Position numbers and translations under genes: made by a program
Origin: Bacteroidales bacterium
Lineage (GTDB): Bacteria; Bacteroidota; Bacteroidia; Bacteroidales; P3
Direction: 5' to 3'
Length of the DNA stretch: 41,098 bases
Assembly: GCA_017542345.1 (NCBI GenBank)
Contig: JAFXXI010000030.1
Location: forward strand, 1-41,098
Shown here: one piece after another, positions 2,096 to 40,845 of the stretch
How the letters are laid out: every line of letters starts with the position of its first letter
Numbering within the stretch: position 1 is the first letter of the stretch
The notes under the pieces: generated by a model
Seen by the model: only the letters and a program-made list of their open reading frames with translations
Databases searched by the model: none
What the model was told of the DNA's origin: nothing

Positions 2096-4759
2096 TTATC
2101 TCAGCAGCAGCACCGTGCCGGTACGGCTCTGTGTCTCCGTGGGATGCAACTCGGTGCGGTAGGTCAGGGTCCACACATAGGCTCCCTGGGTGCAGGGGCG
2201 TCCGTTGTGGGTGCCGTCCCAGCCCTTGGCGGGGTCGTCGGTGCGGAACATCAGCAGTCCCTCGCGGTTGTAGATGCTCATCTCGGCCCCCTCGATTTCC
2301 TGCATGACGATGCGGAAGTAGCTCGCTTCGTCACCGGTGGGGGTGAAGGCTGTGGGAATCCACACCGTGGCGTGGCTCACCGGCAACACCCGTACCGTGC
2401 TGTCGGTACAAGTGCCGTTGTACACCGTCAGCCCTATCACCACGCTGTCGACCGACGGATCCACCGCGCCGTGCAGGTGCACCAGTTCGCCGGCGTATTC
2501 GCCGTCCACCGTCCATACGCGGCTGATGTTGTTATGGGTGATATCGTAGGCGTCGAAGGAGGAGTGGTCGTAGGTCAGCACATCGGGGTTCACCTCCATC
2601 TTCGCTTCGGGCCATTCGGGCGGCTCCAGCAGCATCTTGGTGTCGAATTCGCACCCGTGGTAGCGGTAGCGCAGTGTGTAGAGGGTGGCAACCTCGGGAC
2701 TCACCTCGGGCGACGGCGCTGTGGGATGGCCTTCGAGCACAGTGTCGGGCGGCACGGACAGCCAGCGGAAGGCGTCGCTCGACGCCAGCAGCGTGCTGTC
2801 GACATGAAGGGTGTAGCGTTTATGGAGGCAGTCTGACTCATAGCGCATCGCCCCGCGCAGCGGCATCACCTCAGTCAGGGTCAGTATCACCGTTGAGTCG
2901 CACCCCGCCGATGAGGTGAAGGTCGCCTCGTATTCGCCTGGGCTGTTGAGTATGCGGTCGTGCCAGATGTAGTCGCGTCCATGGCACATACTGTCGGCTA
3001 TCCGCTCGGGGTCCGATGTCTGTACATGCAGGTTCAGCACCGCCGTGCTGTCGCAGCCGTTGGCGGCGCGGAACACCTCGGGATAGAACCCTTCTGTGTC
3101 ATAGTTCTTGCCGTTCCAAGTGTATGTTTCGTTGATGCAGATGCTGGCTTTTACTGTGTCGCGTGGCGAGTCAAGCACATATACCGTCGCTGACAGCGTG
3201 TCGCACCAGGAGAGCACCACGGCCAACACGTCGTGGCGCCCTGCGCTGTCGAACACCTGCGTGATGCGTTTCTGGTTGTTGGTCAGCCACACCCCGTTGT
3301 CCCACCATTCTGCACGGGCTGTCGTGTCGTGCGACACCACTTCGAACACCACCGTGTCGCCCACGCACGCCGTCAGCGAGTCGCTGATGGTACGCTCGTC
3401 CACGCCGTTCACCAGCAGCTGGTTGTTCAGATTGCGCAGCGCCATGCCGGCGATGTAGGCGTAGCTCTCATACTCACCTAGGCCGTAGAACCAGGCCACG
3501 AAAGAGCCTACGCTGTTGCGCAGCGTGTGGTTGCCGGGCGACACCGACAGCTGGGCATAACTATAGCCGTTGTTCAGGGCTGTGAAGGCATTGTCTATGG
3601 GATTGTTGTCGATGGACATGCCCCTTACTTGGTGGGTGCGGGTCACGATATTTACATAGTGGGCTGTGGTACGGTCGGTGTTGAGGGCCTGGAAGGTTAC
3701 CTTTTTCAGTCCCTGCTCCACTGGCGGCACCGTCACCGCCGCTGGGTCGCCCGGTTGGCCGCCGCAGCCGGCACCCTTCAGCATCAGCTGCACCATCGAG
3801 GGCTTACTGGTGTTCAGTTGGTGGGCCGCGCCGCTGGGCATATTCAGTTCGTGGGTCTGTCCGGCCTGCAGCGTCGCCACCACCGTGCCGTCGTAATTTA
3901 TTGTGTTGTTGTTTTCCGACGAAGTCACTATCACTACGTCACCTCCTGTGCGCACGGCCGTGGGTATCAGCACAAAGGTACGGCCCCAGTTGTTGCGGGG
4001 CAGCATCTGCTCGTAGACGTGGTCGCAAGCTGAGCAGCTAGTCGTCGGCACATTGGCGCAGTTGTGCCCGACAAACATGGCGAAGGGGCGACTGTTTGAC
4101 GTCACCACCATGCCAGAGAAACTTTGGCCCGCCTGTGCCGACATCTGGAAGGTCTGCCCCCGCATCAGCATCTGCGTGATGGTAGTGCCGGCACTATGGC
4201 TTGGTGCGCTAGTCGCGCAGGGCAGCGTCATGGTCAGCTCCGTGCTGTCGTCGGTAGCCACAAATCCCACCTCGGCGCCGCCCGCTGCACCGTTCGGCCA
4301 GGTCTGCACCATGTACTCAATGCCCAGTGTCGACGTGGGCAATATGGTGGCTATGTCGAAAGTGGCACTGCCAAAATTCGAGGCGTAGAGCGATATGTCG
4401 CGTGTCGAGGTCACCAGGAGGCCGAAGTCCTGCACCTGGCCATTGGCCTGGGAGTAGCCGTAGGTGGCGCTGATGTCGAAGCTCACCACGCCGCTGCTGC
4501 CAATTATTTTCATCTGGTTCAGTCCCAACCGCTGGTTGCGCACACGCACCTGCGCGCCGACAGGCCCCGTGGCTACCAACGAAAGGCCGTCGTTGATGGA
4601 GTAGTTCTGGAGGAACATCACCCAGAAGTCGCGTCCCGAGGTCGACCAGTTGGGACATTGCGCCTCTGCCGGCTGCCACAGCAGCGAAGCCAGCAGGCAC
4701 AGCAGTGCCGCACACCGTGCGGTCTGTCGCCTCCATCTGTATCCAATCCGACCGTCCAT
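2096..4759 (-). CDS. IgGFc-binding-like surface protein with T9SS type B sorting domain
   Basis: An 887-residue secreted protein. A basic N-terminus and hydrophobic stretch (AALLCLLASLLW) ending near AEAQ look like a Sec signal peptide. Residues from about 40 (GRDFWVMFLQNY) to about 430 resemble the IgGFc-binding N-terminal domain found in many Bacteroidota surface proteins. A middle region carries repeated Cys-containing segments of the form GCDST(A/V). The last ~85 residues, starting VWIPTAFTPTGDE and running through YNREG, GWDG and GAYVWTL, are the gliding-motility-associated C-terminal domain used as a T9SS type B sorting signal. It should cross the outer membrane through T9SS. No enzymatic motif was seen, and the ligand is unknown. 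It has a well-formed promoter at 4822-4853. Confidence 0.88.
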   Translation of the reverse strand: MDGRIGYRWRRQTARCAALLCLLASLLWQPAEAQCPNWSTSGRDFWVMFLQNYSINDGLSLVATGPVGAQVRVRNQRLGLNQMKIIGSSGVVSFDISATYGYSQANGQVQDFGLLVTSTRDISLYASNFGSATFDIATILPTSTLGIEYMVQTWPNGAAGGAEVGFVATDDSTELTMTLPCATSAPSHSAGTTITQMLMRGQTFQMSAQAGQSFSGMVVTSNSRPFAMFVGHNCANVPTTSCSACDHVYEQMLPRNNWGRTFVLIPTAVRTGGDVVIVTSSENNNTINYDGTVVATLQAGQTHELNMPSGAAHQLNTSKPSMVQLMLKGAGCGGQPGDPAAVTVPPVEQGLKKVTFQALNTDRTTAHYVNIVTRTHQVRGMSIDNNPIDNAFTALNNGYSYAQLSVSPGNHTLRNSVGSFVAWFYGLGEYESYAYIAGMALRNLNNQLLVNGVDERTISDSLTACVGDTVVFEVVSHDTTARAEWWDNGVWLTNNQKRITQVFDSAGRHDVLAVVLSWCDTLSATVYVLDSPRDTVKASICINETYTWNGKNYDTEGFYPEVFRAANGCDSTAVLNLHVQTSDPERIADSMCHGRDYIWHDRILNSPGEYEATFTSSAGCDSTVILTLTEVMPLRGAMRYESDCLHKRYTLHVDSTLLASSDAFRWLSVPPDTVLEGHPTAPSPEVSPEVATLYTLRYRYHGCEFDTKMLLEPPEWPEAKMEVNPDVLTYDHSSFDAYDITHNNISRVWTVDGEYAGELVHLHGAVDPSVDSVVIGLTVYNGTCTDSTVRVLPVSHATVWIPTAFTPTGDEASYFRIVMQEIEGAEMSIYNREGLLMFRTDDPAKGWDGTHNGRPCTQGAYVWTLTYRTELHPTETQSRTGTVLLLR

Positions 4760-4821: not shown

Positions 4822-4853
4822 CAAATATAGGGATAATTTCCGACTTTTGCAAA
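4822..4853 (-). promoter_or_regulatory. Bacteroidota-type promoter of the IgGFc-like gene
   Basis: Read on the minus strand, TTTG (complement at 4850-4853), exactly 20 nt, then TATATTTG (complement at 4822-4829). This matches the -33/-7 consensus of the Bacteroidota housekeeping sigma factor. It leaves a leader of about 60 nt before the ATG at 4759. Confidence 0.78.
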
Positions 4854-4879: not shown

Positions 4880-5031
4880 GCCACTCCCACAGCATCCTGA
4901 AGGGTATTTCTACGCTCCTTCTACGCTCCTTCTACGGTCGTTTAACGGTAAAAAACCGTAGAACGAGCGTTAAACGACCGTAGAACGACCGTAGAACGAG
5001 CGGAGGGGAAGCGGAGGGGAAGCGGAGGTGA
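4880..5031 (+). repeat. 152-bp intergenic dyad array, copy A (11-bp units)
   Basis: Fills most of the 421-bp gap between the divergent IgGFc-like and M16 genes. Order: a 26-bp lead block (GCCACTCCC..AGCATCCT.., 4880-4905); four 11-bp units of type CSTTYWACGST (4906-4949, first unit degenerate); AAAAA (4950-4954); four inverted units of type ASCGTWRAACG (4955-4998); three G-rich units of type AGCGGAGGGGA (4999-5031). The unit phase never slips. A second copy with identical length and order is at 23158-23309. The 11-bp period excludes a coding repeat. The remainder of the gap, 5032-5156, is purine-rich and then AT-rich, with no gene seen. Confidence 0.92.
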
Positions 5032-5156: not shown

Positions 5157-5179
5157 TATCTTTGCACCTTATTAGGTGC
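5157..5179 (+). promoter_or_regulatory. -7 box and overlapping dyad ahead of the M16 gene
   Basis: TATCTTTG at 5157-5164 matches the TAnnTTTG box; no clear -33 TTTG is visible 19-20 nt upstream. Immediately downstream, GCACCT-TATT-AGGTGC (5164-5179) is a perfect 6-bp inverted repeat covering the expected transcription start and the very short leader before the ATG at 5181. It could be an operator or a start-site hairpin. Its position rules out the upstream in-frame ATG at 5154 as the start. Confidence 0.55.
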
Positions 5180-5180
5180 C

Positions 5181-6449
5181 ATGATTGAGTATGTGAAACA
5201 CATATTATCCAATGGGTTGACGGTGCTGACGCACGAGGCGTGGGACACGCCGATGGCGACGGTCAACATGCTCTATGCGGTGGGTTCGCGCAACGAGGAC
5301 CCGCAGCGTACAGGGTTTGCCCATCTGTTTGAGCACCTGATGTTTGGCGGTACACGGCAGGTGCCCGACTTCGACCGTGTGGTGAGCAGCCTGGGGGGCG
5401 AGAGCAACGCCTTCACCAACTGCGACTACACGAACTATTATGTCACCCTACCCGTCGACGGATTGAAGACGGCGCTATGGCTTGAGGCCGACCGTATGGG
5501 CGGTTTAGAGTTGACGCAGAAGGCATTGGAGGTGCAGCAGCATGTGGTGACCGAGGAGTACAACCAGCGCTATATGAACCAGCCCTATGGCGACAAGTGG
5601 CTGCTGCTGCGGCCGTTGTGCTATAAGGTGCACCCCTACCGCTGGCCGACCATTGGCGCCGACATACGGCATGTGGCGGAGGCCAGCCTGGACGACGTAG
5701 TGGACTTTCATCGCCGCTGGTACCGTCCCGATAACGCCATCCTTGCCGTAGCGGCCCCGATGAAGCATGAGGACCAGCTGGCGCTGGTCAATGATGAATT
5801 CGGAATGATGAATGATGAATCACGAACCCCGGACTCCCATTCATCATTCACCATTCATCACTCATCATTACCTGTGGAGCCTGTGCAGCAAGAGGCACGG
5901 CATCTGACGGTGCGGCGCAATGTACCGCTGCCGATGGTGACGTTGGCCTGGCCGATGTGCGGCAGTGGCGATGCGATGTTCAGGGCCTGCGACCTGGTGA
6001 GCGACGTGCTGGGCAACGGCGAGTCAAGCCGACTAGTGCGCCGGCTGGTGCACGAACGGGGCTTGTTCAGTGAGGTCGACGCCTGTGTCACGGGCGAACG
6101 CGACCCGGGCTTGATGGTGTTGAGTGGCAAGTTGCGCGAGGGTGTCACTACCGACGAGGGCGCCGAGGCGCTGCGCACCGAAGCCCGCCGCCTGGCCGAA
6201 GAAGGTGTGGGAGAGTACGAACTGCAGAAAGTAATCAACAAATACGAGAACACGTTTGTCTACAGCCAGTACAAGGCTGCCGACCGCGCCCTGGGGCTGT
6301 GCTACTACACATGGCTGTGCGACACGGAGCTGGTGAACCGCGAGCCGGAGGAATACCGCCGCGTCACCGCTGTCGACGTGCAGCGTGCTGCGCAGGCAAT
6401 CTTTGTTCCCGAACATGAAAACAGATTGGACTATGAGTGCCAAGGATAA
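5181..6449 (+). CDS. M16 family zinc peptidase (pitrilysin-like)
   Basis: A 422-residue single-chain M16 peptidase. The inverted zinc motif HxxEH is H48-L-F-E51-H52, and a downstream VTEEYNQ segment supplies the usual third ligand region. The C-terminal half ends in FVPEHENRLDYE, typical of the family. The start is set at 5181 because the promoter box covers the earlier ATG. Residues 204-230 (NDEFGMMNDES...HHSSLP) replace a normally short linker between the first M16 domain and the next strand, and are encoded by an 80-bp imperfect palindrome. The gene opens a long same-strand run and overlaps the following channel gene by 17 bp. There is no obvious signal peptide, so it may be cytoplasmic or exported by another route. 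Confidence 0.9.
   Translation: MIEYVKHILSNGLTVLTHEAWDTPMATVNMLYAVGSRNEDPQRTGFAHLFEHLMFGGTRQVPDFDRVVSSLGGESNAFTNCDYTNYYVTLPVDGLKTALWLEADRMGGLELTQKALEVQQHVVTEEYNQRYMNQPYGDKWLLLRPLCYKVHPYRWPTIGADIRHVAEASLDDVVDFHRRWYRPDNAILAVAAPMKHEDQLALVNDEFGMMNDESRTPDSHSSFTIHHSSLPVEPVQQEARHLTVRRNVPLPMVTLAWPMCGSGDAMFRACDLVSDVLGNGESSRLVRRLVHERGLFSEVDACVTGERDPGLMVLSGKLREGVTTDEGAEALRTEARRLAEEGVGEYELQKVINKYENTFVYSQYKAADRALGLCYYTWLCDTELVNREPEEYRRVTAVDVQRAAQAIFVPEHENRLDYECQG
5790..5869 (+). repeat. In-frame palindromic element inside the M16 gene
   Basis: Two 31-bp arms (5790-5820 and 5839-5869), built from AATGATGAAT-type and ATTCATCATT-type words, are complementary at about 26 of 31 positions around an 18-nt loop (5821-5838). 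The arms start exactly on codon 204 and add a Ser/His/Asn-rich linker without shifting the frame. Confidence 0.88.
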
Positions 6450-7392: not shown

Positions 7393-7453
7393 GGAGTGCA
7401 AGGAGTATAAGGAGTTCAGGGAGTTCAGGGAGTTCAAGGAGTTCAAGGAGATT
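7391..7453 (+). repeat. Seven tandem 9-bp AAGGAGTTC units
   Basis: Seven 9-bp units run from the stop of the channel gene to just before the TonB receptor ATG: AAGGAGTGC, AAGGAGTAT, AAGGAGTTC, AGGGAGTTC twice, AAGGAGTTC, AAGGAGATT. Five of the seven contain AAGGAG, an anti-Shine-Dalgarno match, and the last lies 13 bp before the start codon. It may simply be a microsatellite, or it may act in translation initiation. Confidence 0.9.
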
Positions 7454-7457
7454 AAGA

Positions 7458-9869
7458 ATGATGAGATATAGATTGGGGTTGCTATTGGTGCTGTGCACCG
7501 TTTGGCTGTGGCCGCTGTCCCTCTGGGGGCAGACGGTGAGCGGGACGGTGACCGACGCCCAGACGGGCGAGACGCTAATCGGCGCCACGGTGGTCGACAT
7601 GGCCAGCGGCAAGGGTACCGTCACCAACGCCTATGGACGCTACACGCTGACCTTGAAGGCGGCTTCGGCCGACCTGCGGGTGACCTACATCGGCTACCAG
7701 CCCCATCGGCAGACGGTGAGCCTGGAGGGCAACAGCAAGGTCAATGTGGCGCTGGAACCTGCGCTGGAACTTGAGGAGGTGACCATCACGGCCGAGCGAA
7801 TGAACAGCCCCAAGGTGAGCCAGATGAGCGCCATCGAGGTGCCGGTGGAGCAGATCAAGCTGGTGCCTGTGATGTTCGGCGAGGCCGATGTGCTGAAGGC
7901 CGTGCAGCTGCTGCCGGGCGTGCAGAGCGGCACCGAAGGCACCAGCGGCATCTATGTGCGTGGCGGCGGGCCCGACGAGAACCTGTTTCTGCTGGACGGC
8001 ATACCGCTCTACAACGTGAACCACCTCGGGGGCTTCTTCAGCGCCTTCAACAGCGATGCGCTGAAGAACGTGACCCTCTACAAGGGCAGCTTCCCGGCCC
8101 ATTTCACGGGACGCATATCCAGCGTGCTCGATATCACCACCAACAACGGCAACGACAAGGAATGGCACGGCGGCGCCACGCTGGGCCTGCTGGCCGCCAA
8201 GGTGAGCGTGGAGGGTCCGGTGATAAAGGAGAAGACCACGCTGAGCCTCTCGGCACGCCGCACCTACGGCGACCTGCTGATACAGCCGATTCTGATGCTT
8301 GCGGCGTCGCAGTCGGAGGGGCTGAAGAACCTCAGCGCGGGCTACTACTTCTATGACTTGAATGCCAAGGTGACGCATCGCTTCAGCGACCGCAGCCGCC
8401 TCTACGGCACTTTCTATATGGGCGACGACAAGCTGTTTCTGCGTGCCAAGATGGGCGAGAGCGGCGACGACAGCTACAACGCATGGCTCAAGCTGGGCTA
8501 CAACTGGGGCAACCTGGCTACGGCCGTGAGGTGGAACTATGAGCTTAGCCCCAGGCTGTTCATGAACCTCTCGGGCTCGTACACACGCTACCGCAACGAC
8601 CTTTCGCTGGGAACCGAGGACGAGATGCACTATGGCTACCACATGAGCCAGCTTCAGACGAGCAAGATAGAGATGGACTATAACAGCGGTATCCACGACC
8701 TCACGGCGCGAGCCGACTTCGACTATACCCCCGCGCCGGAGCACAGCATCCACTTCGGCACGTGGATGACACACCATATCTTCACCCCCGAGGTGCTGGG
8801 AGCCAAGTTGGCCTTCAGCGACACGGACACCACGGTGAGCCAGGACACCACCTTCGGCCAGAGCCGCGTCAGGGCGCAGGAGATGGTGCTCTATGCCGAG
8901 GACGACTGGGCGCTGACCGACGCCTTGAAAATCAACGCGGGGGTGGCGCTGAGCGGCTTCGCGGTGCAGGGCGTCTTCTACCCCTCGGTGCAGCCGAGAC
9001 TGAGCGGCCGCTTTATGGTGACCGACGACATCTCGGTGAAGGCCGGCTACAGCTACATGACACAGTATCTGCACCTGCTCTCGAGCAGCAATATCAGTCT
9101 GCCCACCGATCTGTGGGTGCCGGTGACGGCACGCATAGCGCCGATGAATAGCCGCCAGGTGGCGCTCGGCGTGTTCTACGACTGGCGCAGCTTGGTGAAT
9201 TTCAGTATCGAAGGCTACTACAAGAATATGGACAACCTGATGGAGTACAAGCCCGGAAGCTCGTTCTTCGGCACCAGCTCCAACTGGGAGGACAAGGTGT
9301 GCCTGGGCCGCGGGTGGGCCTACGGCGTGGAGTTTTTGGCGCAGAAGAGTGTGGGCAACCTCACGGGCTGGTTGGGCTACACCTGGAGCCGCACCTGGCG
9401 CCAGTTTGATGAGCTCAACGACGGAGCCGCCTTCCCGGCCAAGTACGACCGCATCCACGACCTCTCGCTGACGCTACAGTATCGGCCTAACGACCGCTTC
9501 GACTGCGGCTTGACATGGGTCTATAGCACCGGCAATACCGCCACGCTGGCCTACCACCGCTTTGAGACCGAGGCGCCGGAGGACGTCTACTACTATCCCA
9601 GCTCGGCCTATTTCGTTGAACAGCGCAACAACTACCGCCTGCCGGCCTACCATCGGATGGATTTGAGTTTCAACTTCCACCGTAAGTTTACCCGTGGCAG
9701 CCGCACAATCAATGTGAGTGTGTATAACGCCTACAACCGGCAGAACCCGTTTATCATATACCCCAGCACGAAGTACTACTCCAGCGACGGCAGCGAGTAC
9801 AAGACGGTGCTCATGCAGCGTTCGCTGTTCCCGATACTGCCGTCGGTATCGTATACCTACAAATTCTGA
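7458..9869 (+). CDS. TonB-dependent receptor with carboxypeptidase-like regulatory domain
   Basis: An 803-residue outer-membrane receptor. A signal peptide (about 1-25, ending LWGQ) is followed by a CarboxypepD-reg-like domain (VSGTVTDAQTGETLIGATV, about 26-110). The plug (about 115-230) has IYVRGGGPDENLFLLDG and YKGSFPAHFTGR, and a 22-strand-type barrel ends SVSYTYKF. Barrel strands are rich in Tyr and Trp. Together with the next gene it forms the common Bacteroidota TonB/DUF4249 pair thought to import an unidentified substrate. It is not a SusC homologue with a SusD partner, since no SusD follows. Start alternatives are ATG at 7458 or 7461. Its stop TGA directly abuts the next ATG. Confidence 0.93.
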   Translation: MMRYRLGLLLVLCTVWLWPLSLWGQTVSGTVTDAQTGETLIGATVVDMASGKGTVTNAYGRYTLTLKAASADLRVTYIGYQPHRQTVSLEGNSKVNVALEPALELEEVTITAERMNSPKVSQMSAIEVPVEQIKLVPVMFGEADVLKAVQLLPGVQSGTEGTSGIYVRGGGPDENLFLLDGIPLYNVNHLGGFFSAFNSDALKNVTLYKGSFPAHFTGRISSVLDITTNNGNDKEWHGGATLGLLAAKVSVEGPVIKEKTTLSLSARRTYGDLLIQPILMLAASQSEGLKNLSAGYYFYDLNAKVTHRFSDRSRLYGTFYMGDDKLFLRAKMGESGDDSYNAWLKLGYNWGNLATAVRWNYELSPRLFMNLSGSYTRYRNDLSLGTEDEMHYGYHMSQLQTSKIEMDYNSGIHDLTARADFDYTPAPEHSIHFGTWMTHHIFTPEVLGAKLAFSDTDTTVSQDTTFGQSRVRAQEMVLYAEDDWALTDALKINAGVALSGFAVQGVFYPSVQPRLSGRFMVTDDISVKAGYSYMTQYLHLLSSSNISLPTDLWVPVTARIAPMNSRQVALGVFYDWRSLVNFSIEGYYKNMDNLMEYKPGSSFFGTSSNWEDKVCLGRGWAYGVEFLAQKSVGNLTGWLGYTWSRTWRQFDELNDGAAFPAKYDRIHDLSLTLQYRPNDRFDCGLTWVYSTGNTATLAYHRFETEAPEDVYYYPSSAYFVEQRNNYRLPAYHRMDLSFNFHRKFTRGSRTINVSVYNAYNRQNPFIIYPSTKYYSSDGSEYKTVLMQRSLFPILPSVSYTYKF

Positions 9870-13036: not shown

Positions 13037-13112
13037 GGCGTCGTAGCTCAGTTGGTAGAGCGAAGGACTGAAAATCCTTGCGTCACTGGTTCAAATCCAG
13101 TCGATGCCACCA
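13037..13112 (+). tRNA. tRNA-Phe (anticodon GAA)
   Basis: A complete 76-nt cloverleaf. The acceptor stem GGCGTCG (13037-13043) pairs with CGATGCC (13102-13108) with one G-U. The anticodon stem AAGGA/TCCTT encloses CTGAAAA, anticodon GAA at 13070-13072. The T-arm is ACTGG-TTCAAAT-CCAGT. The 3' CCA is encoded (13110-13112). A terminator follows within 8 bp. Confidence 0.97.
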
Positions 13113-22254: not shown

Positions 22255-23067
22255 TTACTTGCCCTGCTCGTCCATGCGGGCCAGGGCGGCGCGGGTCTTG
22301 GTGTAGATGTTCTGCGCCTCGCTGATGTATTTGTCCTTCTTGAGGCTGCTGCTGTAGCGCTCGAAGTCGGCCAGCACCTGCTGCAGGCGCTCGCGCTGCT
22401 TCTCCTCGCGGCTGCCGAGGGCGTAGAGGTAGCCCGACCGCAACTGGTAGAACATGGCGTCCTCGCGCATCGGCGCCTCGGGGTAGAGGTTGATGAAGTT
22501 CTTCAGGCTCTCATAGGCGGCGTGGTATTCCTCGATGTAGTAGTATCCGTAGGCGTTCTCGTAGTCTTTCTTCATCAGTTTCTCGCGCATCTCGTCGATA
22601 TAGTGGTTCACCTCGGGCATGTGCGTGCTCCGCGGCCATCGCTCCGAGAAGGTCTCGAACTCCTCAATGGCTTCGCGGGTCAGGCTCTGGTCGAGCGAGT
22701 AGGTGGGTGAGTCGATGTATTTGCAGTAGGCCGACAGGAAAGCCGCCTCCTCGACGCGCTCGCTGTAAGGGAACTGCCGTGCGAAGCGCTTGAACTGGTA
22801 GCCGGCGGTGTAGTAGTCCTTCTCCTTGTAGAGCGCCTGGGCATAGTACCAGGCAATCTCCTCGGCATTCTCCTTGCCGCGGTAGTGCAGCGTCAGATTT
22901 TCGAACAACTGGATAGCCTTCGAATAGCTGTTTTCGTTGTAGTATCGCATCGCCGCAGCGTACTTGGCTTCATAATCGTTGCTCTTGAGTAGCTTGTCGT
23001 AGCCGTTGCAACTTGTTAGCAATAAGCACACTGCGAAGATACTTAGGGTGATTTTCGCACATTTCAT
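22255..23067 (-). CDS. bamD: Outer-membrane protein assembly factor BamD
   Basis: A 270-residue lipoprotein of the BAM complex. The start at 23067 gives a clean lipoprotein signal MKCAKITLSIFAVCLLLTSC with Cys20; a longer in-frame extension upstream would run through the promoter. The mature part is made of TPR-like helices: AAMRYYNENSYSKAIQLFENL, AWYYAQALYKEKDYYTAGYQF, FSERWPRSTHMPEVN and YYIEEYHAAYESLKNF. BamD docks unfolded barrel proteins onto BamA. The -7 promoter box ends only 6 nt before the ATG. Confidence 0.92.
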   Translation of the reverse strand: MKCAKITLSIFAVCLLLTSCNGYDKLLKSNDYEAKYAAAMRYYNENSYSKAIQLFENLTLHYRGKENAEEIAWYYAQALYKEKDYYTAGYQFKRFARQFPYSERVEEAAFLSAYCKYIDSPTYSLDQSLTREAIEEFETFSERWPRSTHMPEVNHYIDEMREKLMKKDYENAYGYYYIEEYHAAYESLKNFINLYPEAPMREDAMFYQLRSGYLYALGSREEKQRERLQQVLADFERYSSSLKKDKYISEAQNIYTKTRAALARMDEQGK

Positions 23068-23157: not shown

Positions 23158-23309
23158 GCCAATCCCTTAGCATCCTAACAGGTTGTTCTACGGTCGTTTA
23201 ACGCTCCTTCTACGCTCGTTTAACGGTAAAAAACCGTAGAAATACCGTAGAACGAGCGTAGAACGACCGTAGAACGAGCGGAGGGGAACCGGAGGGGAAG
23301 GGGAGGAAA
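23158..23309 (+). repeat. 152-bp intergenic dyad array, copy B (11-bp units)
   Basis: Lead block GCCAATCCC..AGCATCCT.. (23158-23183), four 11-bp units (23184-23227), AAAAA (23228-23232), four inverted units (23233-23276), three G-rich units (23277-23309). Aligned base for base with copy A at 4880-5031, I count 129 identities in 152 positions and no gaps. It lies in the 529-bp gap between divergent bamD and the PorP/SprF gene. Confidence 0.92.
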
Positions 23310-23596: not shown

Positions 23597-24610
23597 ATGA
23601 TAAAAAGACAGTTGAAAGGGAAGCTGAAAGGCGTGCTGCTGGGTGCGATGCTGACGGTGTCGGGCATGGCGGCTGCGCAGGACATCGGTTTCTCCCAATT
23701 CTATGCCAATCCGCTCTACCTGAACCCCGCATTTGCAGGTTCGGCGGTGGCCCCCCGCTTCTCCATGGTCTATCGCGGACAGTGGCCCGGACTTGTGAGC
23801 GCATATACTACAGTTTCGGCATCATACGACCAGTATATCAACGATATGCACGGCGGCATCGGCGTGCTGGTGATGACCGACCGCGTCGGTGACCACGGCG
23901 CCCTGTCGACCAACCATCTGGGTCTGATGTATGCCTTCAACTTCCGCGCCGGCCGCACGGTCAATGTCAGCCTCGGCCTTCAGGCGTCGGTGGTGAACAC
24001 CAACCTGCGGTGGGACGACTACTTGCGTTTCCCCGACCAGATTGACCCCACGTTGGGTTTCACCTACCAGACCAACGCCCAGGCACCTGACAAGCTGAGC
24101 CAGTGGGCCATCGACTTCAACGCCGGTGCCCTGGTCTACAGCGACAAGTGGTATGCCGGCTTGGCGGCGTCGCACCTGACGCAGCCCAATGTGGCCTTCT
24201 ATTCGGAGGACCGCGTGCCGATGAAACTCACCGTCCATGGCGGCGGACTTATCAATGTGGCCGAGGAGCAGCGCCGTCAGTCGTCGCTCGGTCTCGGCTC
24301 ACCCATCATCTCGCCCAACGTGGTGTACCAGTATCAGGGCGGTCTGCACTACTTCAACTATGGTGTCTATCTGGATTGGATGCCTTTCCTGGTGGGCGTG
24401 TGGCTCCGCAACGGAGTGGAGAATGTGGATGCTTTCATCTTCCAGGTGGGTGTGAAACAGGAATATTTCAGAGTGGGCTACAGTTACGACGTGACAGTGT
24501 CGAAGCTGGCCAACAGCACCGCCGGTGCCCACGAAATCACGGTGGGTGTGGTGCTGCCCGCGCCGGACTTGAGGAAGAAGGTTCGCGCCATCAGCTGCCC
24601 GTCGTTCTGA
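23597..24610 (+). CDS. PorP/SprF family T9SS outer-membrane protein
   Basis: A 337-residue predicted outer-membrane barrel. The signal peptide (about 1-28, ending MAAAQD) is followed by the family hallmark IGFSQFYANPLYLNPAFAG and beta strands such as FSMVYRGQWPGL and DQYINDMHGGIGVLVMTDRVGDHGALSTNHLGLMYAF. A C-terminal VGYSYDVTVSKL...GAHEITVGVVLP fits. Family members anchor or serve the T9SS machinery and sort particular cargo. Here it is followed by gldJ rather than by the gldKLMN genes, so it is a SprF-like paralogue and not clearly the core PorP. Confidence 0.9.
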   Translation: MIKRQLKGKLKGVLLGAMLTVSGMAAAQDIGFSQFYANPLYLNPAFAGSAVAPRFSMVYRGQWPGLVSAYTTVSASYDQYINDMHGGIGVLVMTDRVGDHGALSTNHLGLMYAFNFRAGRTVNVSLGLQASVVNTNLRWDDYLRFPDQIDPTLGFTYQTNAQAPDKLSQWAIDFNAGALVYSDKWYAGLAASHLTQPNVAFYSEDRVPMKLTVHGGGLINVAEEQRRQSSLGLGSPIISPNVVYQYQGGLHYFNYGVYLDWMPFLVGVWLRNGVENVDAFIFQVGVKQEYFRVGYSYDVTVSKLANSTAGAHEITVGVVLPAPDLRKKVRAISCPSF

Positions 24611-37604: not shown

Positions 37605-37678
37605 CGGGGTGTGGCGCAGTTGGCTAGCGCACTTGCATGGGGTGCAAGGGGTCGAAAGTTCGAGTCTTTTCACCCCGA
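37605..37678 (+). tRNA. tRNA-Pro (anticodon GGG)
   Basis: Acceptor CGGGGTG (37605-37611) pairs perfectly with CACCCCG (37671-37677). The anticodon stem CTTGC/GCAAG encloses ATGGGGT, giving anticodon GGG in the same loop as E. coli proL. The T-arm is GAAAG-TTCGAGT-CTTTT. The discriminator is A, and the 3' CCA is not encoded (CAA follows), unlike the tRNA-Phe gene in this window. Confidence 0.95.
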
Positions 37679-37750: not shown

Positions 37751-39031
37751 CTACAGCAGCTCTTCCAACGTCCACAGCCGATTGGTGTTCGAGCCTTTGA
37801 CCAGGATGGTGGCATCGCTCACGGGGTGCTCCTGCAGCCAGGCGCGCACCGCCTCGGTGTCGGGGAACCGCAGCATGTTCTCCGGCAGGCTCATCCCGTC
37901 GAACTCGGGACCTACCAGCAGGCACCGCTCAAGCCGGCAGTCATCCAGTTGCGCCACCAGCCGCTCATGCTCCTGCCGCTCGTCGGCACCCAACTCATGC
38001 ATGCCTCCGATAACGGCCATCGTGCCTTTCATTGAATTGAATGAGGCGATGGCGGCTGCCATCGACGAGGGGTTGGCGTTGTAGCAGTCGAGGTAGAGGC
38101 GGTTGCCGCGTGCGGTCTCCTTGAATTCGGAGCGCTGGTTCGACGGCACATAGGCCTCGATGGCCTCCTTGATGTCCCACGGCTCCACGCCGAAATGCAA
38201 ACCCACGGCCACAGCGGCCATGCAGTTGTCGAAGTTATAGCCGCCCAGCAGGTGCGTCTGCACGGTGTAGACGTTGTCCTGCACCTCAAAATAGAATTTC
38301 ATAAACGGGGTGTCGGCCACATGGCTGCCGCGCACCTTGGCCCCTTCGCTGCGGCCGTAGGTGACGCTCTTCTCCATCCCTGCGGCCTCATGCATCAGGC
38401 GCTCGTTGTCGGCATTGACAAACACCAAGCCGTGCTTGCCAGCCAGGTGGCGATAGAGCTCCGTCTTGGTCTTCACCACCCCCTCGAAGCTTCCGAATCC
38501 CTCCAGATGGGCCCGCCCCACGTTGGTAATCAGGCCGCAGTCGGGGTCGGCGATGCCGCACAGGAACTCTATCTCGCCCGGGTGGTTGGCGCCCATCTCC
38601 ACGATGGCAATCTCCGTCTCTTCGGGGATGGACAGCAGCGTGAGCGGCACACCCAGGTGGTTGTTGAAGTTGCCCTTGGTGGCCGAAGCCTTGTAGCGTT
38701 TGGCCAACACCGCATGAACCAGCTCTTTGGTGGTGGTCTTGCCGTTGGTGCCGGTGATGCCGATGACGGGGACGGTCAGGTGGCGGCGGTGCTCCCGTGC
38801 CAGCTCCTGGAGCGTGGCGAGCACATCGTCGACCACCACACAGCGCTCGTCCACAGCGTATTGTGCGTCGCTGATGACACACATGGCGGCTCCCTGCTCC
38901 AGCGCCGTCGGCGCGAATGCGTTGCCGTCGAAATGCTCGCCCTTGAAAGCGAAGAAGATGCAGCCGGGGGTGATGGCCCGCGAGTCGGTGGTCACCTTCC
39001 GTGAGCGCAGATAAGTTTCGTAGAGGTTCAT
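37751..39031 (-). CDS. murF: UDP-MurNAc-tripeptide:D-alanyl-D-alanine ligase
   Basis: A 426-residue stand-alone MurF, cytoplasmic, completing the UDP-MurNAc-pentapeptide precursor. It has all family motifs: the N-terminal DSRAITPGCIFFAFKG, P-loop VIGITGTNGKTTTKE, VEMGANHPGEIEF, ITNVGRAHLEGFGSFEGVVKTKTEL (which carries the Lys that is carbamylated in Mur ligases), and LDCYNANPSSM. These are closer to the consensus than the MurF half of the fusion at 30888, so this gene is the better candidate for the working ligase. No clear promoter was found in the upstream gap; TTAATTAA at about 39058-39065 is a short dyad. Confidence 0.94.
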   Translation of the reverse strand: MNLYETYLRSRKVTTDSRAITPGCIFFAFKGEHFDGNAFAPTALEQGAAMCVISDAQYAVDERCVVVDDVLATLQELAREHRRHLTVPVIGITGTNGKTTTKELVHAVLAKRYKASATKGNFNNHLGVPLTLLSIPEETEIAIVEMGANHPGEIEFLCGIADPDCGLITNVGRAHLEGFGSFEGVVKTKTELYRHLAGKHGLVFVNADNERLMHEAAGMEKSVTYGRSEGAKVRGSHVADTPFMKFYFEVQDNVYTVQTHLLGGYNFDNCMAAVAVGLHFGVEPWDIKEAIEAYVPSNQRSEFKETARGNRLYLDCYNANPSSMAAAIASFNSMKGTMAVIGGMHELGADERQEHERLVAQLDDCRLERCLLVGPEFDGMSLPENMLRFPDTEAVRAWLQEHPVSDATILVKGSNTNRLWTLEELL

Positions 39032-39186
39032 CGTCTTGGGTTTGTTGTTCTGATATGTTAATTAACGTGAAAAGCCCTCCGAAAGTATGCCGCTTCCCCT
39101 CTTTTCTTACCACACGCATCCCCAGCCCCTTGTCTCCATACTCTTCTTATCCTCTTCTCACCCCCTCCCCATCCGCTGGCATTTTG

Positions 39187-39241
39187 ATAGGAGGGGGAGC
39201 GGAGGGGGACCGGACCGGGACCGGAGGGGAACCGGAGCGGA
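39187..39241 (+). repeat. Partial third copy: G-rich 11-bp units
   Basis: Five in-phase 11-bp units: ATAGGAGGGGG, AGCGGAGGGGG, ACCGGACCGGG, ACCGGAGGGGA, ACCGGAGCGGA. They match the G-rich tail units of the 152-bp element copies. The dyad part and the AGCATCCT block are absent. The 293-bp gap 39032-39324 otherwise holds a C-rich stretch (39090-39180) and a 15-bp near-repeat at 39075-39089 and 39246-39260 flanking the array. Confidence 0.8.
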
Positions 39242-39292
39242 ACACCCCTCGGAAGGTATGAAATTATTTTTTCGCGTGTCGGGAAAAATTCG

Positions 39293-39324: not shown

Positions 39325-40845
39325 ATGATGAAAGGAATATATAGCACGCTGATTTGCATGGCATTCGCCGTGCTGATGACGGTTCCCTGCGGGGTGAAAG
39401 CCCAGGACGAACCCCAGGAATTGACCAATCTGGTCATCTTTCTCCGCTTTGCCGACGACGAGGAGATCACCCATCCCTTCGCCGAGATCGACTCGATGTT
39501 CAACGGCCGCAGGCCGGGCACCCTGAGCGTCTACAATTTCTACGACGCCCTCACCTACGGCCGGCTGCACTACAACACCGTCTATACCAACAACATCCAA
39601 AACGGCGTGATTGTCTCCTACCGCGACCCGATGCCGCGCTGCCACTTCCAGCCCTACGACAGCCTCTCGAACCCCGACGGCTACCACCCCTGGGAGCAGC
39701 CCTTCATGGGCGTCTCGACCCGCGAGGCGCAGCTGCTGGGTCGCGCCGTCCGCTACATCGACTCGATGCATCTGGTCGACCCCGGCGTGGTGCTCGACGG
39801 CAACGGTGACGGCGTGATAGACAACCTCAGCTTCATCGTCAAAGGCGGCACCGGCGCATGGGCCTCCATCCTCTGGCCCCACATGGAGTATTTCCCCCAC
39901 GACTCGCTCGATTACACCGTTACCCTCAACGGGGTGCGCCCCAACACCTTCAACTTCGAGTTCGAAGGCGCCGGCCAGAGCTACTTCTCGGCCCATGTCT
40001 TCCGCCACGAGATGGGCCATTCGCTGAACCTGCCCGACCTCTACCACTATCTCAACTACAGCAATGTGATGCCCGCCGGCATGTGGGACATGATGCACTA
40101 CAACTACGCCCCCAACCATACGGCCGCCATCTACAAGAACAAAATCCTCCACGTTTCGGACGACCCGATAGAGATCACCGCCGACGGCGACTACACGCTG
40201 CGCAGCGTGGGCTCCAGCCCCTCGCGCAACTGCTACTACATCCGCTCATCCATCGACCCCACGCAGTGGTTCCTCTTTGAATACCGCCGTCAGGCCGACC
40301 CCTTCGAGGACGGCATTCCCGGCACGGGCCTCATCGTGGCACGCTGGAACGACACCGTGTCGCTCGATTACAACGGCATGTTCGCCAACGCCTTCTTCGA
40401 CTTCTACACCCAGGCGCACCAGTACTGGATTTTCCGTCCGGGGAGCGCCATCGACACGGTGCCCGGCAACATCTACCAGGCGTTCTTCAGCCAGGCTTCA
40501 GGCCGCACCACGTTCGGCCCCGACACCGACCCGCACCCCTACCTCACCGACGGCACCCCCGACACGAGTTTCGTGATTACCGACATCCGTGAGAACGGCA
40601 ACCAGCTCACCTTCCATGTGCACTTCCTCGTTCCGCGTGAGGGCATCGACGAGGTCGGCGGTCAGCAGCCGCAGGTCACCGTCTTTGCCGACAACGACCG
40701 CGTGGTGGTGCGTGGCGCCGAGGGCGAGACGGTGAATGTCTACGACATGATGGGCCGCAGGGTACAGAACAGCGCACTTCCCGCCGGCGTGTATGTCGTC
40801 AGAGTCGGCGACAACATAGTCCGCCGCATCGTGGTAGTCAGATAA
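39325..40845 (+). CDS. M6-like secreted metalloprotease with T9SS type A sorting domain
   Basis: A 506-residue secreted protease. The signal peptide (about 1-30) ends GVKAQ. The zinc motif is H228-E-M-G-H232 followed by SLNLPDLYHY, the extended form seen in M6/immune inhibitor A-type enzymes, with the downstream Met region MPAGMWDMMHYN. The last ~70 residues (VTVFADNDRVVV ... VNVYDMMGRRVQ ... LPAGVYVVRVGDNIVRRIVVVR) are a type A T9SS sorting domain. It is expected to be exported by T9SS. ATG at 39325 or 39328. The partial 11-bp repeat array lies 84 bp upstream. Confidence 0.9.
   Translation: MMKGIYSTLICMAFAVLMTVPCGVKAQDEPQELTNLVIFLRFADDEEITHPFAEIDSMFNGRRPGTLSVYNFYDALTYGRLHYNTVYTNNIQNGVIVSYRDPMPRCHFQPYDSLSNPDGYHPWEQPFMGVSTREAQLLGRAVRYIDSMHLVDPGVVLDGNGDGVIDNLSFIVKGGTGAWASILWPHMEYFPHDSLDYTVTLNGVRPNTFNFEFEGAGQSYFSAHVFRHEMGHSLNLPDLYHYLNYSNVMPAGMWDMMHYNYAPNHTAAIYKNKILHVSDDPIEITADGDYTLRSVGSSPSRNCYYIRSSIDPTQWFLFEYRRQADPFEDGIPGTGLIVARWNDTVSLDYNGMFANAFFDFYTQAHQYWIFRPGSAIDTVPGNIYQAFFSQASGRTTFGPDTDPHPYLTDGTPDTSFVITDIRENGNQLTFHVHFLVPREGIDEVGGQQPQVTVFADNDRVVVRGAEGETVNVYDMMGRRVQNSALPAGVYVVRVGDNIVRRIVVVR

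Follow-up and report, generated by a model that had tools for sequence, protein, structure and literature searches.

The window (the whole stretch of DNA that was analysed, 41,098 nucleotides of a Bacteroidales genome) contains two copies of a 152-base intergenic element, both read on the forward strand. Copy A (4880-5031) and copy B (23158-23309) are identical at 129 of 152 positions without a gap and have the same build, exactly as an earlier note on this DNA had stated. In copy A, a lead block of the ACTCCCACAGCATCCT... type (4880-4907), delimited in an alignment of 11 copies, is followed by a left arm of four 11-bp units, the last of which is cut by the loop (4908-4949), by the loop AAAAA (4950-4954; left arm and loop were both read from the sequence and the 11-copy alignment), by a right arm of four inverted 11-bp units (4955-4998) and by three G-rich 11-mers (4999-5031) that resemble units of a second letter class. 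The dyad scores 28 in copy A (10 for the best of 20 shuffles) and 23 in copy B (9.5 for shuffles), where the loop occupies 23228-23232. When copy A was scored against the window, the median score was 39 on the forward and 38 on the reverse strand, and the remaining top scores were shifted or reverse-strand registers of the two copies themselves. In the window, CGTWRAACGA with at most one mismatch has 27 matches where 6.08 would be expected, and none of 100 shuffles came to 27. A scan for self-similarity at a distance of 11 bases (lag 11) located a third array, made of GGAGGGGGACC-type units (39183-39247), the dyad of which shows no excess over its own shuffles (9.5 versus 10).

Copy A lies between a reverse-strand gene (2096-4759, an open reading frame with a Pfam IgGFc_binding domain and a CHU_C type IX secretion signal, the start of which is placed at 4618 by a codon-usage gene finder) and an M16 peptidase gene (5181-6449, forward strand). 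Each of these genes is faced by a TAnnTTTG motif read from the sequence (TATATTTG at 4822-4829, reverse strand, and TATCTTTG at 5157-5164, forward strand), which we take to be the Bacteroidota -7 element. Copy B is similarly flanked by a gene for a YfiO-type outer-membrane lipoprotein (22255-23022, reverse strand) and a PorP/SprF gene (23597-24610, forward strand), and the third array by a Mur ligase gene (37751-39031, reverse strand) and a gene for a DUF6383 protein (39325-40845, forward strand), all assigned by Pfam, like the peptidase. The window also carries two tRNA genes (13037-13109 and 37605-37678).

Further copies were found throughout the genome to which the window belongs (1,257,704 bases in 37 contigs, 69.67% complete). 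There are 11 near-complete copies of the same letter class (class 1), copies A and B included, with flanks that are unrelated to each other, and one shortened copy (C2:68153-68204) that retains the lead, about one unit and the G-rich right end but has lost the palindrome centre, and that looks as if its palindrome had collapsed. In the alignment the lead block and the G-rich tail are common to all 11 copies; other letter classes differ in these blocks. The 11-bp units abut without spacers in copies A and B and in the other class-1 copies, by which a CRISPR is ruled out, as the earlier note had said. A covariance model built from the 11 copies also matched all 11 on the opposite strand, as expected of a dyad.

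The weak matches of this model turned out to be 11-bp arrays spelt differently, and we therefore scanned 1,029,864 of the 1,257,704 bases in a letter-blind way, by self-similarity at lags 5 to 25. At a threshold of 26 matches in 33 positions, lag 11 gave 64 segments and lag 22 gave 45, with at most 11 at any other lag, none at lags 10 and 13 and one at lag 23; a looser setting (22 in 30) gave 73 at lag 11, 57 at lag 22, 29 at lag 7 and 28 at lag 9. The lag-11 segments merge into 60 loci, most of them with CCCCTCCGGTC/GGAGGGGGACC units and smaller groups with other units, and units with unlike letters all keep the 11-bp step. Single linkage at 9 of 11 positions sorted 107 unit stretches into 9 clusters, one with 97 members and 8 small ones, so the independent spellings in this genome are fewer than they look, and classes 1 and 2 may, judging by their letters, be one drifting family. 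The earlier note had thus caught part of the pattern, with 11 near-complete copies in the genome and a third array in other letters inside the window itself.

Several details were seen beside these arrays. Two spellings adjoin at C22:28004-28210, where an array of TCGGAGTTTAC-type units comes after a class-1 copy. An extra block, CAAAACGCTGTTTTT, stands just outside arrays at C2:32558, C10:54110, C28:6567 and C31:29967, and another, CTGGTTTTCAGCATATTG, does so at loci L245-L253 of a same-genus genome (G029, see below); this outer block could be a repeat in its own right, or else mark where a longer element really ends. At L016, the sequence next to the copy at C14:13240 resembles a cobalamin riboswitch.

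Among relatives, the class-1 pattern (one mismatch allowed) is present in 3 of 59 same-genus genomes, and this one spelling had no match in viral contigs. The letter-blind scan reached further. One stretch of 2.3-20 kb from each of 20 of the 58 other same-genus genomes (298,976 bases) gave lag-11 arrays in 9 of the 20 genomes, at 13 loci, several of them barely above threshold (a stricter setting left 6 segments, versus 9 for lag 7). A second sample, 30 Bacteroidales records around the orthologue of the M16 peptidase gene next to copy A (a Gemmatimonas record was dropped), which need not all belong to the genus, gave arrays in 17 of the 30 records, at 18 loci in 303,539 bases. At the same threshold, 12 genomes of the family's other genera gave 2 lag-11 segments, both AT-rich, in 300,084 bases, 12 genomes of other families of the order gave none in 203,502 bases, and 8 genomes of other orders or classes gave one in 125,144 bases. 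Within the sequences sampled, then, the 11-bp arrays are for the most part restricted to a single genus of gut Bacteroidales.

These genomes also have short periods other than 11 bp. Segments at lag 7 versus lag 11 numbered 12 versus 13 in the genus sample and 53 versus 19 in the peptidase-locus sample, where lag 7 outnumbers every other short lag. Long hairpins (28 of 36 positions paired) numbered 17 in the window's own genome, with lag 11 as the best lag in 13, but 4 in the peptidase-locus sample (lag 11 in none) and 3 in the genus sample (lag 11 in 2). In L137, L138, L148 and L156, at the orthologue of the gene at 7536-9869 of the window, 7-bp repeats of the TTTCAAT or CTTTCAC kind appear to code for the start of the protein, where they would supply the hydrophobic stretch of a signal peptide. 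The spelling of the 11-bp unit often differs between same-genus species, and its length stays 11. Comparison of 41 distinct units from 48 arrays with shuffled units gave a mean match of 5.84 versus 5.72 of 11, and 61 of 820 pairs matching at 8 or more of 11 positions versus 28, suggesting that some unit spellings are related and that most are no more alike than shuffled ones.

The richest genome was G029 (same genus, 2.1 Mb, 97% complete), in which the element end has 211 matches (104 on one strand and 107 on the other); if an element gives no more than two of them, the genome carries about 106 or more elements. Together with the copies described above, this supports the suggestion in the earlier note of a dispersed non-autonomous repeat, for which finding no further copies in the genome or in relatives had been named as the refutation. 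End-to-end spacings in G029, measured for 25 pairs among the 100 places listed, were 85 (17 pairs), 74 (5) and 96 (3), so lengths change in steps of one 11-bp unit. All 12 copies that were read fit two inverted arms around a 5-nt loop, with 8 loop spellings and A or T at 53 of 60 loop letters; the dyad program placed a loop of 5 in 7 of them, of 3 in 3 and of 14 in 2. Dyads exceeded 20 shuffles at 39 of 60 loci in the window's own genome and at all loci examined in G029 (12), G002 (6) and G042 (2). The arrays of G001 are mostly one-armed, and the dyad exceeded shuffles in 3 of 9.

Taken together, we favour, with moderate confidence, the view that the element belongs to a family of dispersed repeats that neither code for protein nor move on their own, namely palindromic minisatellites of 11-bp units, usually built as two inverted arms with a short loop between them, that act as DNA and are spread by copying. 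The same spelling at scores of scattered sites within a genome, and a spelling that often differs between species, point to copying of whole elements; action at the DNA level is suggested by the fixed step, the whole-unit length changes, the lack of covariation between arms (see below) and the fact that arrays often lie outside transcription units. Some trans-acting enzyme would copy the whole DNA element into other intergenic places, units would be gained and lost singly, and the letters would drift or be replaced as the step stays. What keeps the step may be that the array functions at the DNA level, each unit spanning one helical turn and being read by a protein: repeated contacts would then lie on one face, for that enzyme or for another protein. 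This helical-face idea, which the earlier note had put forward, draws support from the 11-bp step being kept by units with unlike letters. As for traces of such copying, the ends of class-1 copies are by eye not inverted repeats and the palindrome in G029 extends a little past the units, no target-site duplication was seen by eye around arrays, the ends of which are not exactly defined, and at the gap orthologous to window positions 7393-7535 the three array-bearing species and the array-free ones were too diverged to be joined. A plain mobile repeat does not by itself explain the fixed 11-bp step or the placement of the copies in the window's own genome, and the mostly one-armed arrays of G001 and the presence of other short periods also count against this reading.

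That placement was assessed on a map of 806 genes predicted by the codon-usage gene finder, which are predictions and not annotations. No predicted gene contains the centre of any of the 60 loci, and two loci overlap gene ends, by 3 and 8 bases. The loci lie in 36 divergent, 20 tandem and 2 convergent gaps, with 2 at contig edges, so that arrays occupy 36 of the 76 divergent gaps, 20 of the 627 tandem ones and 2 of the 78 convergent ones (p = 6.5e-26; 36/76 versus 22/705 for divergent against all others). The bias holds after matching for gap length: among gaps that measure 100 bases or more once the array is subtracted, 36 of 68 divergent ones contain an array versus 19 of 163 others (p = 1.2e-10), and at 250 bases or more 25 of 39 versus 13 of 56 (p = 1e-4). 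Class-1 copies are in divergent gaps in 10 of 11 cases. Of 72 divergent sides, 49 have a TAnnTTTG motif directed toward the gene in the space that separates it from the array (control pointing away, 5 of 72); the motif is present on both sides of 17 of the 36 divergent loci and on at least one side of 32, and among tandem loci it is found on the downstream side in 11 of 20. In 50 records of other species, pooled, arrays occupy 15 of 42 divergent, 13 of 361 tandem and none of 19 convergent gaps (15/34 versus 12/87 for gaps of at least 150 bases, p = 6e-4).

These observations are what would be expected if the arrays were selected boundary elements. Phased 11-bp units would then keep two divergent promoters apart, either because a protein binds them on one face or because they bend and are extruded as a cruciform by the negative supercoiling that arises there. 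Curved DNA lying upstream of promoters has been reported to pin supercoils (PMC6301789), and the predicted bend of the arrays is modestly raised (22.8 versus 17.8 degrees). But it exceeds the 95th percentile of the array's own shuffles in only 17 of 60 arrays, and in fewer with underwound twist, so that predicted curvature backs this explanation weakly. The bias is missing from the richest genome: 20 loci of G029 comprise 10 tandem, 6 divergent and 4 convergent ones, and the non-edge loci of G001 (3 divergent, 5 tandem, 1 convergent), G002 (1, 3, 2) and G042 (0, 3, 0) show no clear orientation bias. At C1:63440, L148, L152 and L156, arrays stand between the promoter-like motif and the gene, downstream of the motif, and there is no significant association between dyad strength and divergent placement (p = 0.10). 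We regard selection as boundaries as possible rather than probable.

Upstream of the M16 peptidase gene, 6 of 30 species have an array, 3 with a tandem and 3 with a divergent neighbour, so that this gene alone gives no orientation rule. In the gap orthologous to 7393-7535, arrays are present in 3 of 20 resolved species (L148, L152 and L156) and in none of the other 17, and the letters in L152 differ from those in L148 and L156. Between the sample and the window's own genome no syntenic divergent pair was found; all 150 syntenic pairs were tandem, with an array in 3 on the sample side and in none on the own-genome side. If the elements are copied, their concentration in divergent gaps of the window's own genome might come from being least harmful in such places or from serving a use in them, and the bias may reflect boundary selection or the survival of older copies where the DNA is untranscribed. 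The near-perfect, young-looking copies of G029, which lack the bias, fit survival somewhat better. A step of about 11 bp is commonly tied to negatively supercoiled DNA (PMC4132750), and the bending argument for it is disputed in another paper (PMC7537859). A combined form, a genus-wide DNA element that keeps its step and leaves its letters free, acts as a supercoil- or protein-based boundary upstream of divergent promoters and spreads by copying, seems to us rather doubtful.

Growth in place, by 11-bp tandem duplication through replication slippage or strand switching without mobility, would account for several unrelated spellings that are every one 11 bp long and for the whole-unit length changes, and the same genomes do carry other short-period repeats; with identical letters at scores of scattered sites per genome, and with class 1 sharing its lead and tail as well, it is improbable. 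Still less probable, in our view, is a role of the element in transcribed form, with a long hairpin in RNA leaders or 3' ends serving as terminator or RNase target. The dyads above shuffles are in line with such a hairpin, as are the few arrays downstream of a promoter-like motif, and 83.8% of cells would pair between the arms in the 11 copies. But with shuffled partners the figure is 84.5%, and pairs changed on both sides number 1 versus 2.6, a comparison of limited power because the copies are close. The view in the earlier note that variation looks constrained is upheld only in part: the C/G and CT/TA variants are present, and no covariation is seen between the arms. Furthermore, Rfam at gathering score found the two tRNAs in the window and nothing else, convergent gaps of the genome, where terminators would be expected, hold arrays in 2 of 78 cases, G001 has one-armed arrays, and a promoter-like motif lies between array and gene on most divergent sides. 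On covariation, Rfam and position we reject the RNA hairpin that the earlier note had considered, the arrays downstream of a promoter-like motif being the exceptions. REP/BIME-type repeats mobilised by a Y1 (RAYT) transposase, also considered there, would likewise be palindromic, intergenic and many-copied, and Y1_Tnp is frequent in the order (45 of 60 genomes), but a search of the own genome, the order, the family and six selected genomes found none in the own genome (70% complete), in G029 (97% complete, about 106 or more elements) or in G042, and an array within about 3.3 kb at only 2 of 12 Y1 loci in G001, G002 and G012, which makes this the least credible explanation.

Repeat families are normally recognised by their letters, and here the spacing outlasts the letters, so sequence-similarity searches would miss the family (3 of 59 genomes, versus 9 of 20 in the letter-blind scan). 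In open-licence literature, subscription papers and preprints aside, we found no account of 11-bp dyad arrays in Bacteroidales. Should the 11-bp step be under selection, the arrays would be a natural test of how bacteria use helical phase and supercoiling between divergent promoters; should they be purely selfish, they would be a clear example of a repeat whose geometry persists as its sequence is replaced.

Among known systems, parC of plasmid R1 and other ribbon-helix-helix operator arrays have 11-bp direct repeats bound on one DNA face. parC is a single plasmid site with ParR/ParM genes, whereas here there are dozens of chromosomal sites, mostly inverted and with letters that vary between species. 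REPs measure 20-40 bp, and the arms described here, arrays of about 40-50 bp with an 11-bp step, form a longer build. REP/BIME repeats also have their RAYT transposases, whereas the Y1 transposase is absent from the window's own genome and from G029; like the arrays, they are short, palindromic and intergenic, with many copies (PMC3733652). The intergenic TAACTGA direct repeats of Beggiatoaceae likewise form many sets per genome, but their unit has 7 bp and fixed letters (PMC4679880). The nearest in working appears to be the BrickBuilt MITE of Porphyromonas gingivalis (PMC4596501), which has 19 copies in one genome, a 23-nt unit and, like the 11-bp arrays, an intergenic place in Bacteroidales, tandem minisatellite repeats that vary in number between copies, leader and tail blocks and no transposase of its own. 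We indeed found a comparable common lead and G-rich tail in the 11 class-1 copies. The 23-nt unit is absent here (64 segments at lag 11, one at lag 23), and BrickBuilt has direct repeats in place of two inverted arms of 11-bp units, terminal inverted repeats reported for part of its copies, whereas the class-1 ends are by eye not inverted, and a range of one species in place of a genus with changing letters. By this analogy the arrays would join the small dispersed intergenic repeats, with the 11-bp step as their unusual constant.
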